DNA from: a virus
Virus record (IMG/VR): IMGVR_UViG_3300025646_000162
Location: 1 to 35,653 of that record
DNA: 35,653 nt
Reading direction: 5' to 3' (one strand)
The first letter of the stretch is position 1; the number at the start of each line of letters is the position of its first letter. Under the pieces are notes generated by a model. It was given only the letters and a program-made list of their open reading frames with translations, was not told the DNA's origin and did no database searches. The position numbers were made by a program, and so were the translations under genes. Of the stretch, positions 12,753 to 21,364 are shown in pieces.

Positions 12753-13565
12753 TTATTCTCCGTGTACGTAAGGGCAACCTTCATTGTACAAAGTACAATA
12801 CTTGTCTGAACAAAGGTAGTATTTAGGGTTACCGCGGAATAGCAAGTTAGGGGCTATACCACTGTGAAAAGCCTCTAATGTGTCTAACATAGTATTGATT
12901 AGATACTTAGCTCGTGGCACGTTTGACTCTAGCTCAAGCACATGTCCTGTAGGAGACTTAGTAAGAGCTACACCTTGAATGGTTGCACGAGATACATCAA
13001 AGCCTTCTGACTCAGCTAGGAATTTATACGTAGATTGCTGGGTGACGTACGACTGAGCTACTGGTTTACGCTTAGAAGTCTTAACGTCTGATAATACGCC
13101 TGGAGCAATGTAGTCAATAGTACCACCAACATTGCTAACTATCGGATGTGCCACTTCAATGTCAATGCGGTGCTCAACCTTAATAGGAATATCAACAAAA
13201 GGTACAATATCTTCTACAAAAGCTTTGGAGCCTTGTATTACTTCATTCTCAGCAGTACGAGAGTTTTCACCTGGGTCGTATTGAAGATCAGTATCCAGGT
13301 TTTGGAACTCTTCAATAGCTGCATCACACATCATAGTGAGATTAACCTCTTCTTTATTCTGTGTGAGTTGAGCTTCTTTCCACATCTCTTCTACGCCCTT
13401 GTGAATAGCTGTGCCAATAGCTGCACGAGCATTAGGAATAGTTACACGGCCTTCAAGGAAAACCTTAGCCCATTGAAAAGGGCAATTAAAGAAAGTATCA
13501 ATTGCAGAAGGGCGGATACAGATAGCTTTGCCATCGTAGTCAATATCAGTAGTAATTTTAGACAT
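12753..13565 (-). CDS. Cas4/RecB-like PD-(D/E)XK exonuclease with Fe-S cysteines
   Basis: A 270-aa nuclease of the RecB/Cas4 branch. The N-terminal motif SAIDTFFNCPFQWAKVFL provides the first cysteine. The C-terminal YLCSDKYCTLYNEGCPYVHG provides three more, in the order expected for a 4Fe-4S cluster closing the nuclease fold. Between them: GTAIHKGVEEMW (the H of motif I), VGGTIDYIA then VLSDVKTSKRKP (catalytic D and DxK), and SYVTQQSTYKFLAES (motif with Q and Y). The ATG at 13565 has GAGG 9 bases upstream; the ATG at 13571 is also possible. It probably resects ends for phage recombination, with the SF2 helicase and ligase downstream. Cas4 adaptation functions are unlikely, since no CRISPR genes are present. 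Confidence 0.87.
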   Translation of the reverse strand: MSKITTDIDYDGKAICIRPSAIDTFFNCPFQWAKVFLEGRVTIPNARAAIGTAIHKGVEEMWKEAQLTQNKEEVNLTMMCDAAIEEFQNLDTDLQYDPGENSRTAENEVIQGSKAFVEDIVPFVDIPIKVEHRIDIEVAHPIVSNVGGTIDYIAPGVLSDVKTSKRKPVAQSYVTQQSTYKFLAESEGFDVSRATIQGVALTKSPTGHVLELESNVPRAKYLINTMLDTLEAFHSGIAPNLLFRGNPKYYLCSDKYCTLYNEGCPYVHGE

Positions 13566-14181
13566 TTTCATTTGCCTCAGTAATAGTTAACAAAAAACCT
13601 ACATTAGTAAACACATGCCAAAGATGTGGCATACCAGAGTCAGGATCATTTATCTCACCTTGACGCCAGGCTGCTAAGTGCCTACGCAATGCCGCATAAT
13701 AACGATCAACTTCACCATGTTGCCAATTATTAGGTTTATATTTCTTAGCTCCATGAGTTAAGACTTTAGCTAAAGCTAACTCCCATTCTGGAGGTATAAG
13801 ATCATAGCGAACTTTGTCATCATCGAACTTAATAAACTGTTCGCACACATGAACTGATACGGGATAAGGCGCAGAGTTAATTACCTCAAGACATTTATTA
13901 CATGGTGGCTGAGTGACATACATAGTAAAAGTACTATCTGTAGTGTACTCCGGAGCTAAGCCATAATAGAACGCATCTTCAATAGCCATAGCTTCAGCAT
14001 GAACCACATCAGAAGGACACTTATCTTGTTTAGTGCACATGCAGGTCATAGAGTTGTTATACCCGCGACCTACCACTGCCTCTATTTTATCTAAGACAAT
14101 AATTGCCCCAACCTTTCGCTCATTACACACAGATTTTTTAGCTTCATCACGAGCTAATTGCTCAAACTTTTTTGTTAGCAT
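13558..14181 (-). CDS. Fusion: dCMP-deaminase-like domain + dNTP pyrophosphohydrolase-like domain
   Basis: A 207-aa protein with two enzyme domains. Residues 1-118 have the zinc-dependent cytidine deaminase fold: RKVGAIIV, VVHAEAMAIE with HAE at 61-63, and PPCNKC at 92-97, the Zn-binding H and C residues. Residues about 120-207 match the phage dATP/dGTP diphosphohydrolase (MazZ-like) N-domain: KVRYDLIPPEWELALAKVLT, HGAKKYKPNNW, ALRRHLAAWRQGEINDP then DSGMPHLWHVFTNVGFLL. The ATG at 14181 is chosen because GGAG lies seven bases before it; an ATG two codons earlier sits too close. It overlaps the MazG-like gene and the nuclease gene at either end. Deaminating dCMP to dUMP and hydrolysing a dNTP to dNMP would both reshape the dCTP/dTTP pool. 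The actual substrate of the second domain is unknown. Confidence 0.8.
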   Translation of the reverse strand: MLTKKFEQLARDEAKKSVCNERKVGAIIVLDKIEAVVGRGYNNSMTCMCTKQDKCPSDVVHAEAMAIEDAFYYGLAPEYTTDSTFTMYVTQPPCNKCLEVINSAPYPVSVHVCEQFIKFDDDKVRYDLIPPEWELALAKVLTHGAKKYKPNNWQHGEVDRYYAALRRHLAAWRQGEINDPDSGMPHLWHVFTNVGFLLTITEANENV

Positions 14182-14692
14182 TTGCATGCTCCTGTAGAAT
14201 TAATTGAAGTCGTGGTTCTGGTGGAATAAAACTAGAACCTTTACCTATGTTAGCTTTAACACTAGGATCAGTCTTTTTAACTGACTTAGAGTCATTACTA
14301 TCACAGACTATTAGCATGGCTTTGTTAAATAAAGCCTCAGATAAGCCAGATAAATCTTCACAAGCATTAATAATGCAACCAATAGTTCCAGCCATTAATT
14401 TAGGCTCATCCGCAGAACAAAAGCGATCGACATACCAATCTAGAAATGCTTTAGGTGGAACTTTAGTATAGATACACTCAACCATATCAAGCTTGTTCAT
14501 CTTCCACAAAATGCCTACTGCGATATAAGTAAGGTCACAAAGAGCGTCTAGCCGATCTACAGGTGTTTGTGCTGTTTCATACTCCATTAGCTCTTCTAAT
14601 AGAAGGTCTTCAGCTAATTGCTTATTAAAGACTTGGTCGTAACGTTGACGATTCCAATCTATAATACGTAGCACAACTAAATTACTTAACAT
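14162..14692 (-). CDS. MazG-like (all-alpha) NTP pyrophosphohydrolase
   Basis: A 176-aa helical protein of the PRA-PH/MazG-like superfamily, which hydrolyses nucleoside triphosphates to the monophosphate and pyrophosphate. The metal-binding helices are visible: EDLLLEELMEYETA (E33, E34, E37) and RLDALCDLTYIAVG (D49, D53). The C-terminal SND element (FNKAMLIVCDSNDSKSVKKT) matches the 'NMSK' segment of phage members, followed by a PPEPRLQLIL tail. The start has AGGTG five bases upstream. It lies between the thymidylate-synthase-like gene and the deaminase fusion. A dCTPase role like T4 gp56 would fit that company, feeding dCMP to the neighbouring enzyme, but substrate identity is inference. Confidence 0.82.
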   Translation of the reverse strand: MLSNLVVLRIIDWNRQRYDQVFNKQLAEDLLLEELMEYETAQTPVDRLDALCDLTYIAVGILWKMNKLDMVECIYTKVPPKAFLDWYVDRFCSADEPKLMAGTIGCIINACEDLSGLSEALFNKAMLIVCDSNDSKSVKKTDPSVKANIGKGSSFIPPEPRLQLILQEHANANKKV

Positions 14693-14700
14693 GTTTTCAC

Positions 14701-15522
14701 CTATGCGTGTAATTTAAAAGAAATGGAATCTAGTTGATCCCAAGTAGTGACTCTAAAAGAATCATTGTTAAACTCTTTATAGTCAGTAATCATTTGTAAC
14801 TCATAAACAGGGTAGAAACTCTCTGGATTAGTTACTCTATCTGAGTATCGTTCCGCTCTAGCTAAGTACTCAATAGCGCCAAAAGCATGATCCCCATAAA
14901 TATGACAGTCCCCCAATTGCATTGTTACTGCCCCAGGTTTAAGATTAGTTAGGTAAGCCACTAAGATAATAAACATATTAGCTAACATAATATCTGATGG
15001 TAACCCTATCATTACATCTATAGATCTTTGGATCCATACCATGTTCAGCTCACCATGCTGAGTCACATAGAACTGATACGCATAATGACAACAAGGCAAA
15101 CTAGACTTAGCTATATTAGTAGGATCCCAGCCACTAATCAAATGCCTACGACTATGTGGATTTAACTGTAAGTCAGAAATAACATTCTCTAACTGGTTTA
15201 CACCTCCGAAGTCAATCCATTTATTACCATAATCTACATTAAGTGAGCCGTCAGGTTTAGCCCACTGTTTCCAATAGTTACAACCTTCAATCTCAAAGTC
15301 TTGCACTGTTTTAGGTCCACGTAGAAATGCCGCCATCTCACCAATAACCCCTTTAGGGTATAACTTGCGCATTAAAGGCACTGGAAATTTATCGCCTACA
15401 TAGTACTTTAGTTGGTGGCCAAAGATACTACTGGTTACAGCATTACGACCTTCAGAGACTTTTCCATCATCCAGTATAGCACGTAGTAAACTACAATATT
15501 GTACTTCTAAATTGTTATTCAT
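14701..15522 (-). CDS. Thymidylate-synthase-fold dCMP (hydroxy)methylase candidate
   Basis: A 273-aa protein, about the length of ThyA (264). Catalytic features are present: Arg pair R125/R126 (PHSRRHL), Cys145 in SLPCCHYAYQF, QRS-x-D at 165-169, and H207/Y209 in DCHIYGDH. The decisive change is at residue 177 (bases 14992-14994, GAT). The motif is LPSDI where thymidylate synthase has LPFNI. Asn177 selects dUMP in E. coli TS. Asp at this site is found in T4 dCMP hydroxymethylase, and the N177D change in TS shifts it to dCMP. So the substrate is probably dCMP, and the product 5-hydroxymethyl- or 5-methyl-dCMP. Its start overlaps the exonuclease stop, and the MazG-like and deaminase genes follow. 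Plain thymidylate synthase remains the alternative. Confidence 0.8.
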   Translation of the reverse strand: MNNNLEVQYCSLLRAILDDGKVSEGRNAVTSSIFGHQLKYYVGDKFPVPLMRKLYPKGVIGEMAAFLRGPKTVQDFEIEGCNYWKQWAKPDGSLNVDYGNKWIDFGGVNQLENVISDLQLNPHSRRHLISGWDPTNIAKSSLPCCHYAYQFYVTQHGELNMVWIQRSIDVMIGLPSDIMLANMFIILVAYLTNLKPGAVTMQLGDCHIYGDHAFGAIEYLARAERYSDRVTNPESFYPVYELQMITDYKEFNNDSFRVTTWDQLDSISFKLHA

Positions 15523-16049
15523 TTTTGCATCTCTCTAAAAATATTAAGGATATGATGAGTTTGCCAAATCGCATCATGCAAAGCATTATGGTTAGTTAAT
15601 TCAGGCAGTTCTGGATGCTCTGCTTTAACTAAATGTTTTAATGTACGGTAACACCCGTCTTGGGTAAAATGCCATGGAGCTTTTAAACCATTATTTTTAT
15701 ACGCAGAGCGCAAAATCACATTATCAAAAGTGGCACCGTTCCCCCAAACTACTGGTTTGCTAGGCAAACTATTAATAAAGGCTGTAAACTTTTCTAAAGC
15801 TTGTAATAACCCTGTACTAGCGTTATATACCTCTCTTCTAGCTTCTTCTGATTGTTGTAGCCACCACAACACAGTATCGCCATTAACTTTTCCATTGTGT
15901 TCCATAGCATCAGTTAAGTTTACTTTGACGTAAAATTCACGGTGTATTCCGTTAGTATAAGTAAACGCTGTAGCCCCAATAGCTATAATAGCAGCATCAT
16001 TGTTAGTACCCATAGTTTCTAAATCTAACATTACATGTTGGTCTTTCAT
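15519..16049 (-). CDS. DEDDh 3'-5' exonuclease (DexA/RNase T-like)
   Basis: A 176-aa DnaQ-like exonuclease. Exo I is VMLDLETMG (D8, E10) and Exo II is WGNGATFDNVILRSAY (Asp). Exo III is NHNALHDAIWQTHHI, with the H...D pair that marks the DEDDh type. WW near residues 62-63 and the length match phage DexA and Rv2179c-like single-domain exonucleases. It follows the DNA polymerase directly (stop at 16052, two-base gap) and its stop overlaps the next start (ATGA). The polymerase already carries a proofreading domain, so this enzyme may trim ends, degrade single-stranded or host DNA, or process RNA. Confidence 0.86.
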   Translation of the reverse strand: MKDQHVMLDLETMGTNNDAAIIAIGATAFTYTNGIHREFYVKVNLTDAMEHNGKVNGDTVLWWLQQSEEARREVYNASTGLLQALEKFTAFINSLPSKPVVWGNGATFDNVILRSAYKNNGLKAPWHFTQDGCYRTLKHLVKAEHPELPELTNHNALHDAIWQTHHILNIFREMQK

Positions 16050-16051
16050 AA

Positions 16052-17698
16052 TTATTCCTTAGTAAATTTATAGATGTGCTCATCTTCAATCTTACCCCAA
16101 TTAAAGCCTGCATAGACATCCACAGGCATGGGTAAGTCCTTAATCTTAGTTGAACGACAACACTCAAACCAAGCCTCTTGCATTGCTTCAGACATAACCC
16201 TAGCTACTTGTTCGTGAACTGATCTGTCATTGTCACATTCAAGAACCCAAGAGTCATGTACAAAGTTACAAACCTTAATATCACCTGGCAAACCTCTTAA
16301 CGCAGGCATCATGTAGTGTGTAGCTAGTTTAGCCACTTCAGCACCAAAGCCTTGCACTTGTATATTAAGATGGTCAGTCATTAGTTTGCCAACATAACGA
16401 CGACCAAGAGGTGTCTGCCAGGGTTGCTTCTTGCGCCAAGCAGCTATACCGCGTTGTTGCCAGGCATAGATACCAGTCCATAAGTTTTGCCACTTCTTCT
16501 TAATCATAGCTAACTCAGCTTCTGGAACTAATAGGCCTGCGTCTTTAATCAAGATAGACCCCAGCATGCCATGACTACCTCCATACAATAAGTTGAAGTT
16601 AGCTGTCTTAGCTACTTGCCTAGACGCTTTAATCATGTCTGCAGTATATTGGTGCAAGTCTTCGCCTGAACGGAATAGCTCTTCCATACGTAGTTCGCCA
16701 GTTATTGCGCAACCTCCACGTAGCTCTAATTGTGAATAGTCACTGTATATAAGTGATCTACCGCTGTCAGGCTCTACGCCAAAGACGTCTTTAGTTTTGC
16801 GTGGGATCTGTTGAAGGTTCTGGTCACCACAAGTACAACGACCTGACCTGGCTGAGGGTTTAAACCGACCATAAATGCGGCCAGAAGCAACATCAAACTT
16901 AGTTAAGAAGCTATTCTGTTTTATTAACTTGCGAACTTCATTAACTTGTGCGGCTCGTTCATTACCTTGCAAGGCAAAGGTAGCTAAAGCTAAACCGTCT
17001 GATTCGCTCTCACCGATGTATGGACGAACTTGTTGCCAGGAGTTAACATTAATAGGTAAAGCTAACTCATCAATGCGAGCTAGGTTAGATCTGTAACGGT
17101 TTTGCAACTCTTCCGCTAACACAGGCATACCATTTTGCTGAAACTCAAGACAGTATCTGGTAAAGAGAATGTCTAGCTTATAGCTAAAATCGTCTTGCAT
17201 CTCAGATAACTTGTCAAGCACTTCAAACATATGGAATACATCTAGCGCCGCATACATTTCTTGTGCAGGAGACAATAGACCTGACCAACTAGATTTCTGC
17301 AAATCTTTCTTGCTCAGCCCTGCTTGTTCATAAGGATCATAGCCTAAAACATAGCTAAGGACATCATCAAGAGTGAACTTCTCTTTAGTATAATAGTACA
17401 AACGAGACAAGTAAAATGTATCAATAAACTCACCAGGCAGCCAGTTAGCTCCTGTTTGAGTTTGGAGTACTGAAAAATCATAGTGCAGGTTATGGCCAAT
17501 CGGGGTCACTTCTTTAATGAAGTTAGCTAATGTGTATGGCTCAGGCTTACGTACTAGCTTAACTTCAGGCCAATGTGGCTGATAGAATTGAGCAACCTCT
17601 ATTTGACCATAGAAACCATCAGTTTCTGTGTCAAAAGCTATGGGTTGCTTTATGTTTGTTGAGGACATTACATCCTCAAGAGTAGTGAATGCGTACAT
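16052..17698 (-). CDS. Family A DNA polymerase with 3'-5' exonuclease
   Basis: A 548-aa replicative polymerase, shorter than T7 gp5 (704). Proofreading: Exo I IAFDTETDG (D23, E25), Exo II GHNLHYDFSVL (D74), Exo III YAALD (Y149, D153). Polymerase: motif A SDYSQLELR (D320), motif B RQVAKTANFNLLYG (R360, K364, F368, Y372), motif C FVHDSW near residue 475. Phe at the E. coli 762 position is common in virulent phages. No extra thumb loop for thioredoxin binding is evident, so it may work without that factor. The start at 17698 has GAGG five bases upstream. The SSB gene precedes it and an exonuclease follows it. Confidence 0.95.
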   Translation of the reverse strand: MYAFTTLEDVMSSTNIKQPIAFDTETDGFYGQIEVAQFYQPHWPEVKLVRKPEPYTLANFIKEVTPIGHNLHYDFSVLQTQTGANWLPGEFIDTFYLSRLYYYTKEKFTLDDVLSYVLGYDPYEQAGLSKKDLQKSSWSGLLSPAQEMYAALDVFHMFEVLDKLSEMQDDFSYKLDILFTRYCLEFQQNGMPVLAEELQNRYRSNLARIDELALPINVNSWQQVRPYIGESESDGLALATFALQGNERAAQVNEVRKLIKQNSFLTKFDVASGRIYGRFKPSARSGRCTCGDQNLQQIPRKTKDVFGVEPDSGRSLIYSDYSQLELRGGCAITGELRMEELFRSGEDLHQYTADMIKASRQVAKTANFNLLYGGSHGMLGSILIKDAGLLVPEAELAMIKKKWQNLWTGIYAWQQRGIAAWRKKQPWQTPLGRRYVGKLMTDHLNIQVQGFGAEVAKLATHYMMPALRGLPGDIKVCNFVHDSWVLECDNDRSVHEQVARVMSEAMQEAWFECCRSTKIKDLPMPVDVYAGFNWGKIEDEHIYKFTKE

Positions 17699-20815: not shown

Positions 20816-20973
20816 TACAGATCTCCATAGTTAGTTACAAACCATTCAGCGAAAATCCGCTTCTTACCTTGGATCTTACAGATAAGAATTCCAGGCTTTT
20901 TACGAATGTCTTTTTCCAGGACTTCGACTTCAGTTCTGTTTAACAACTTAACAGTTATAGACCTAATACTCAT
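20815..20973 (-). CDS. Hypothetical protein, 52 aa
   Basis: A small basic beta-rich protein: MSIRSITVKLLNRTEVEVLE then KDIRKKPGILICKIQGKKR and IFAEWFVTNYGDL. The ATG at 20973 is inside the end of denV (11-base overlap) with GGAG 10 bases before it. It overlaps the next gene by one base (TAATG). No family is recognised. Confidence 0.6.
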   Translation of the reverse strand: MSIRSITVKLLNRTEVEVLEKDIRKKPGILICKIQGKKRIFAEWFVTNYGDL

Positions 20974-21364
20974 TTGCTTTTGTCTCCATTTGTTCAAGAC
21001 GTTCAAAGATACGCGCTAAGTTTAACGCGATTGCTTTACCATCAGGCTCCCAGTCATGCATACAATACTTTGGTATGCCAATAACTAAGGAGTCTGGATC
21101 AGTAAACTGTACTTGTATACCACGCCGTTTACATTCAGCAATCAATTGTTTTTGACGCTTAAGTAAATAGCCACAGCGAGTATAAAAGAATTTCATATGG
21201 CCAGTGCCAAGCACATACTGGTCAGATTGTGTGTGACAAGGTAATTCGCCTTTCCCTTCAAGTGCTTTCTTTACAAGAGTAAAGATACGAGGCAACTCAC
21301 GATACTCAGCTAACAAGTGTTTGTCGTGTAGTATCTCAGGATCCACACAGTTGATACGTGTCAT
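20963..21364 (-). CDS. denV: Pyrimidine-dimer DNA glycosylase (T4 endonuclease V homologue)
   Basis: A 133-aa protein with the T4 DenV pattern over nearly its whole length. It starts MTRINCVDPEILHDKHLLAE then YRELPRIF, against MTRIN...DQHLMAEYRELPRVF in T4. Thr2 (the N-terminal nucleophile after Met removal), Arg3, His16, Arg22, Glu23 (catalytic) and Arg26 are all present. The later blocks LGTGHMKFFYTR and LKRQKQLIAECKRRG match T4 GAGHVTFFYD and LRKRQIELIAECLKRG. It removes UV-induced cyclobutane pyrimidine dimers by glycosylase plus AP-lyase action, protecting phage DNA in sunlit habitats. It has its own promoter (P2) upstream and heads the small-gene operon that ends in the Dda-like helicase. 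Confidence 0.95.
   Translation of the reverse strand: MTRINCVDPEILHDKHLLAEYRELPRIFTLVKKALEGKGELPCHTQSDQYVLGTGHMKFFYTRCGYLLKRQKQLIAECKRRGIQVQFTDPDSLVIGIPKYCMHDWEPDGKAIALNLARIFERLEQMETKANEY

Follow-up and report, generated by a model that had tools for sequence, protein, structure and literature searches.

A candidate cytosine-replacement cassette with a thymidylate synthase-fold enzyme predicted to act on dCMP in podovirus-type phages

Whether a phage replaces the cytosine of its DNA, and by which base, is the question raised by three adjacent genes in the IMG/VR record IMGVR_UViG_3300025646_000162, a viral record of 35.65 kb that is classed as linear or possibly a fragment (the window hereafter means this whole stretch of 35,653 nucleotides). 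The trio occupies positions 13558-15522 of the minus strand as three open reading frames (ORFs), all with ATG starts:

14701..15522, minus strand: thymidylate synthase (TS)-fold enzyme, predicted to act on dCMP (273 aa; PF00303, E=2.2e-57)
14162..14692, minus strand: all-alpha NTP pyrophosphohydrolase, dimeric-dUTPase-like, candidate dCTPase/dUTPase (176 aa; phrog_671, E=6.8e-14)
13558..14187, minus strand: zinc cytidylate-type deaminase fused to a DUF5664/PF18909 dNTP pyrophosphohydrolase domain (209 aa; PF00383, E=3.7e-12; PF18909, E=1.3e-30)

A first-pass annotation had described three tightly packed genes including a deaminase-pyrophosphohydrolase fusion; the ORFs lie exactly where it placed them, domains were assigned, and PF00383 and PF18909 do occur in one protein. 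The TS-fold gene is followed by the pyrophosphohydrolase gene after 8 nt, and the latter overlaps the fusion gene by 26 nt. With confidence slightly better than even, we read the trio as a cytosine-replacement cassette with 5-methyl-dCMP as the most likely product, so that the DNA would contain 5-methylcytosine like that of Xp12-type phages. Our confidence that the phage DNA is modified is moderate.

Substrate and product of the TS-fold enzyme

At least 78 distinct members of this TS branch exist across public viral contigs and phages; 78 were gathered from IMG/VR and phage records, and L-numbers denote their loci. The larger relative search used CCH and GCNYW motif patterns and thus left positions 177 and 93 unselected, while one of the six patterns of the smaller search, DYGNKWID, covers position 93. 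Residue numbers are those of E. coli ThyA unless called window numbering. In window numbering, the codon of D177 lies at 14992-14994, that of the nucleophile C145 at 15088-15090 and that of D97 (E. coli 93) at 15232-15234.

The ThyA catalytic and binding set E58, C146, R166, H207 and Y209 is kept in 78/78 relatives. Position 177, where canonical ThyA has the Asn for dUMP (81 of 81 cellular ThyA compared), is Asp in the window and in 77 of the 78 relatives, and the neighbouring F176 is replaced by S or A in 77/78. An Asn to Asp exchange at position 177 turns TS into a dCMP methylase, and Asp177 marks the TS proteins of modified-cytosine contigs in MetaGPA (PMC8670742). D177 together with this literature argues strongly for dCMP as the substrate, and PF00303 and D177 back both parts of the earlier suggestion of a TS-fold dCMP enzyme. 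Since the window enzyme passes the cut-off of the NCBI thymidylate synthase equivalog TIGR03284 (136.7 vs 108.35 bits), this family of at least 78 members is probably named in databases for the wrong reaction. A second label in this family is wrong: the 'bifunctional dihydrofolate reductase-thymidylate synthase' of MW202744 (L023:329-1339) is a gene without either domain, in a record with one TS and no dihydrofolate reductase (DHFR) match. The sole member with Asn177 (L111:3001-3804) retains Asp93 and, as a natural near-revertant, would be a useful assay control. In L006:5089-6792 the TS-like open frame reaches 567 aa with ∼300 extra N-terminal residues (IALIDADTLAW...), a possible fusion.

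The hydroxymethylase signature described for T4 has four parts: an acidic residue (Asp/Glu) at the third position ahead of the catalytic Cys, Ser/Thr at the second position ahead of the catalytic Tyr, Val in place of W83, and the absence of a C-terminal tail (PMC6400193). Three before the Cys the family has Leu in 78/78 sequences, as against Asp in T4 (D145), 44RR and SPO1, and two before the Tyr it has V, I or L in 78/78 as against S94 of T4. W80, L143 and H147 are found in 78/78 and W83 in 76/78, and Q165 is also TS-like. The AlphaFold model (predicted local distance difference test, pLDDT, 95.8) has ThyA as its best structural matches (Z 35, root-mean-square deviation 1.4), and its residue 273 aligns on ThyA 264, the last residue, so that the tail is full-length. 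Of the T4-type marks compared, the family has one, the base-selecting Asp (T4 D179 = E. coli N177). D177, a TS-like hydride-transfer pocket and the tail together are the pattern of a dCMP methylase.

DHFR is needed when a TS oxidises folate, and is unneeded by T4 dCMP hydroxymethylase and MilA because these release tetrahydrofolate (PMC5175136). Five family records carry DHFR, two of them genomes of 42-43 kb; the gene lies beside TS (L015), ∼2-2.5 kb downstream (L064, L075) or elsewhere in the genome (L019, L077). Fifteen records have one TS-fold gene each (L019 being the only DHFR carrier among them), and ThyX as a backup dTMP synthase was found in none of 18 records. A dNMP-kinase-like gene stands downstream of TS, adjacent in L077 (3804-4436; phrog_139, E=2.7e-10) and L069 and ∼0.5 kb off in L098 and L066. 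Since the signature is absent, the TS-like pocket and tail are kept and DHFR occurs in five records, we favour 5-methyl-dCMP over hydroxymethyl-dCMP with moderate confidence, and the first-pass analogy with a gp42-type hydroxymethylase is not upheld.

Position 93 (window D97), just before the catalytic Tyr, is peculiar to the family: all 78 relatives have Asp there, the 81 cellular ThyA all have V or I, and no TS-family sequence outside the family has Asp in the alignment. In T4, S94 as the structural equivalent of V93 contacts the water-activating D145, and both coordinate reacting waters (PMC6400193).

A protein of ∼120-140 aa with the look of a truncated DHFR stands beside TS in several loci (L052:3785-4141, L020:6780-7142, L006:6794-7207, L111:3810-4223), and coexists with the pyrophosphohydrolase in one of ten loci. 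We do not claim it as a DHFR homologue, since Pfam gave a single weak hit (0.0033) and the profile comparison was also weak (probability 4.5%, E 0.009).

Pyrophosphohydrolase and deaminase fusion

The window pyrophosphohydrolase matches PF01503 below the cut-off (E=0.0042), while 23 of 30 family members match it (best 1.1e-8). Its motif is E33 E34 xx E37 ... D49 xxx D53, with E33, E34, E37 and D53 invariant. Neither Foldseek alone (no match at E<0.001) nor a PDB sequence search (nothing useful) helped, and only fold comparison was informative: the top 16 structural matches of the model (pLDDT 93.5) are all of the dimeric dUTPase type at Z 8.8-10.7. Chance similarity between helical bundles can give such values, and the first entry with a different fold, a toxin chain, follows at Z 8.2. 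The best-aligned structures are Campylobacter, trypanosomatid and staphylococcal-phage dimeric dUTPases and related entries. Instead of the earlier label 'MazG-like', dimeric-dUTPase-like all-alpha NTP pyrophosphohydrolase is the better name. T4 gp56 matches PF08761 (dUTPase_2) and, weakly, PF01503; because of this and the modelled fold, the window protein likely corresponds to gp56, both being of one superfamily, and we assign it a dCTPase role with moderate confidence.

In the fusion, the deaminase zinc motifs HAE (H63 A64 E65) and PCxxC (P95 C96 C99) are invariant, and the motifs of both halves are kept in 26 aligned sequences. PF18909 scores 105.7 bits against a cut-off of 27, and DUF5664 is present in 11 of 15 family records. 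Since characterised DUF5664 members act on dATP, dUTP and dGTP (PMC12884076), this half is unlikely to drain dCTP in the way the first-pass reading implied. Phage deaminases of this family can take dCTP (PMC12697855). We propose that the fusion couples deamination of dC nucleotides to dUTP removal, with dUMP as product. DUF5664 (36 loci) and DUF6378 (24 loci) never share one of the 78 loci (Fisher p 5.7e-9, ancestry uncorrected), and DUF6378 may therefore be a substitute pyrophosphohydrolase. It stands beside TS in, for example, L050, L053, L056, L059, L067, L090 and L002:14726-15256. The DUF5664 proteins of Arthrobacter phage Wayne and of SH-Ab 15497 share PF18909 with the window, but stand alone or fused to DUF550 in phages with 2-aminoadenine (Z) genomes, unlike the deaminase-fused form here (PMC12884076). 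A Z-genome reading, prompted by DUF5664, was dropped, as a relative of adenylosuccinate synthetase/PurZ (PF00709) occurs in 0 of 15 family records.

In the route that we propose, the pyrophosphohydrolase would cleave dCTP, and probably dUTP too, to the monophosphate. The TS-fold enzyme would hold dCMP via D177, add a one-carbon unit from methylene-tetrahydrofolate at C5 and finish by hydride transfer; 5-methyl-dCMP is the most likely product because the active site retains the features for this transfer of an ordinary thymidylate synthase. Host kinases, or the adjacent dNMP kinase in some relatives, would raise 5-methyl-dCMP to the triphosphate for synthesis of 5-methylcytosine DNA. Surplus dC nucleotide would be converted by the deaminase to dU nucleotide, the DUF5664 domain would clear dUTP (and dATP/dGTP), and dUMP would go to host ThyA, since the phage presumably lacks a dTMP synthase of its own.

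Cassette conservation, operon context and known phages

Neighbours were counted within 2.5 kb of TS on the same strand in the 78 loci, TS itself being the search bait and so constant by construction. The pyrophosphohydrolase is present in 60/78, the deaminase in 54/78, DUF5664 in 36/78, DUF6378 in 24/78, the small DHFR-like protein in 10/78, a dNMP-kinase-like gene in 4/78 and DHFR in 3/78; none of the 78 loci lacks all five of pyrophosphohydrolase, DUF6378, DHFR, DHFR-like protein and kinase. The association of the trio is thus not chance. The search of related genomes for the same gene set, suggested at the outset, found it in Edwardsiella phage KF-1 (ORF25-27, Kafunavirus), Pseudoalteromonas phage PH1 and Dickeya phage Amaethon, all complete genomes with the deaminase-DUF5664 fusion, and in viral contigs, so that databases already contain the cassette. 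These phages share with the window the order pol A, TS, pyrophosphohydrolase, deaminase-DUF5664, nuclease, helicase, ligase. Their TS is 43-44% identical to that of the window over the full length in KF-1 and PH1 and 46% over 85% in Amaethon, and their genes bear only the labels thymidylate synthase, pyrophosphohydrolase, dCMP deaminase or hypothetical. KF-1 and other close relatives are podovirus-type phages, in keeping with the setting first assumed. Two Manatee Spring genomes and Vibrio phage VPMS1 carry variants of the cassette; in VPMS1 a DUF6378 protein stands where the others have the fusion.

The neighbouring genes of the window are:

16052..17698, minus strand: family A DNA polymerase, with which the run begins (PF00476, E=1.9e-30)
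15519..16049, minus strand: 3'-5' exonuclease, same operon (PF16473, E=1.2e-48), overlapping the TS-fold gene by 4 nt
12753..13571, minus strand: PD-(D/E)XK nuclease (PF12705, E=4.9e-9), overlapping the fusion gene by 14 nt; order kept in relatives

From polymerase to nuclease, these six minus-strand genes overlap or are separated by gaps of ≤8 nt; the exonuclease overlap upstream and the nuclease overlap downstream therefore place the trio inside a longer replication operon. Elsewhere on the minus strand of the window, the C-terminal part of 28881-29387 matches Tad2-like (PF11195, E=2e-21), a Thoeris anti-defence domain, and 20963-21364 encodes a T4 endonuclease V-like pyrimidine dimer glycosylase (PF03013; phrog_1183, E=1e-41), which the VPMS1 annotation also has.

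Like the window, T4 combines PF00303 (gp42), PF00383 (cd) and a dUTPase_2/PRA-PH superfamily protein (gp56), with Asp at the base-selecting position. T4 differs in its scattered genes, in gp42 with D145, S94 and no tail, and in the presence of the gp1 kinase and a glucosyltransferase. Judged by these domain matches and the dUTPase-like fold, the claim that the cassette uses protein families different from those of T4 is wrong. The T4-like logic survives in part: D177 and the pyrophosphohydrolase are best explained by removal of dCTP and modification of dCMP. The gp42 analogy is not supported. The Pamexvirus or Xp12-type 5-methylcytosine phages, represented by the relatives AXL1 and AAT-1, resemble the window in an adjacent pyrophosphohydrolase, a D177 TS and a dCMP deaminase; both have DHFR beside TS, no DUF5664 fusion is annotated, and AXL1 is a siphovirus. 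The domain set was tied to modified-cytosine contigs in 2021, when PF00303, PF01503 and PF00383 were found to co-occur there, often specifically, with D177 linked to modified cytosine (PMC8670742). Those MetaGPA contigs centre on a carbamoyltransferase and are altered at position 147, whereas the window family keeps H147; carbamoylated hydroxymethylcytosine was discarded as a product, no carbamoyltransferase being found in the family.

In the family tree, which has long branches, the window-type TS form a clade (support 100/99), joined in the best tree by the Pamexvirus enzymes with support of only 52/87. In the approximately unbiased (AU) test, one origin of all D177 enzymes obtained p-AU 0.48, and the family held with the T4-type alone 0.069. 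Because p-AU 0.48 leaves a single D177 origin unrejected, the first-pass view of an independently assembled cassette is unsupported.

Rival readings and significance

Several points weigh against a 5-methylcytosine cassette. DHFR is absent from seven family records, namely the window and six complete genomes, and neither of two kinase types tested matched in the window, although absence of a gene from these 35.65 kb is weak evidence because the record is possibly a fragment. The substrate of the pyrophosphohydrolase cannot be read from its sequence, one relative (L111) has N177, and the pocket of the Pamexvirus enzymes differs (A93, V143, P147). In the literature searched we found no published account of the DNA composition of KF-1, VPMS1, PH1 or Amaethon, nor nucleoside data or a modified-DNA report for any family member. 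Finally, the invariant D93 could activate water and give hydroxymethylation. On such a T4-like route, a dCMP hydroxymethylase with D93 as the water-activating carboxylate would lead to DNA with 5-hydroxymethylcytosine, consistent with D177, with the contrast between D93 in the family and V/I in cellular ThyA, with the contact and shared waters of the corresponding T4 residues (PMC6400193) and with the seven records lacking DHFR. Leu before the Cys, the missing Ser/Thr before the Tyr, the retained W83, L143 and tail, DHFR in five relatives and the lack of a carbamoyltransferase speak against it, as does the lack of a T4 gp1-type kinase in 15 family records (T4 itself matched as control). Since a carboxylate at 93 could act like D145 from the other side, we keep hydroxymethylation as unlikely, though of some weight. 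Slightly more doubtful is a distinct pyrimidine hydroxymethylation route, in which, within an otherwise TS-like pocket, an Asp beside the Tyr would replace the T4-type Asp near the Cys and a bifunctional deaminase-dUTP pyrophosphohydrolase would drain dC to dUMP.

Ordinary thymidylate supply, by which the trio would take dCTP/dUTP to dUMP and dTMP and leave the DNA unmodified, is how phage papers interpret similar operons (PMC9206674), and it agrees with the TIGR03284 score and the dUTPase-like fold. It is improbable in view of D177, the known dCMP switch (PMC8670742), and of the replaced F176, each in 77/78. That the cassette mainly degrades host dNTPs or starves a nucleotide-sensing defence, with the TS-fold enzyme secondary, would suit two pyrophosphohydrolase domains, a deaminase and a composition that varies around TS. 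This we consider very improbable, as the TS catalytic and D177 residues are near-invariant (TS being the bait) and some relatives add DHFR or a dNMP-kinase-like gene to the cassette.

If the cytosine-replacement reading is true, small podophages, isolated ones included, carry replaced cytosine, which would matter for how they escape restriction and for efforts to sequence and clone them. A natural link between deamination and dUTP removal, as proposed for the deaminase-DUF5664 fusion, would be unusual, and D93 offers a clean single-residue handle on methylation versus hydroxymethylation.

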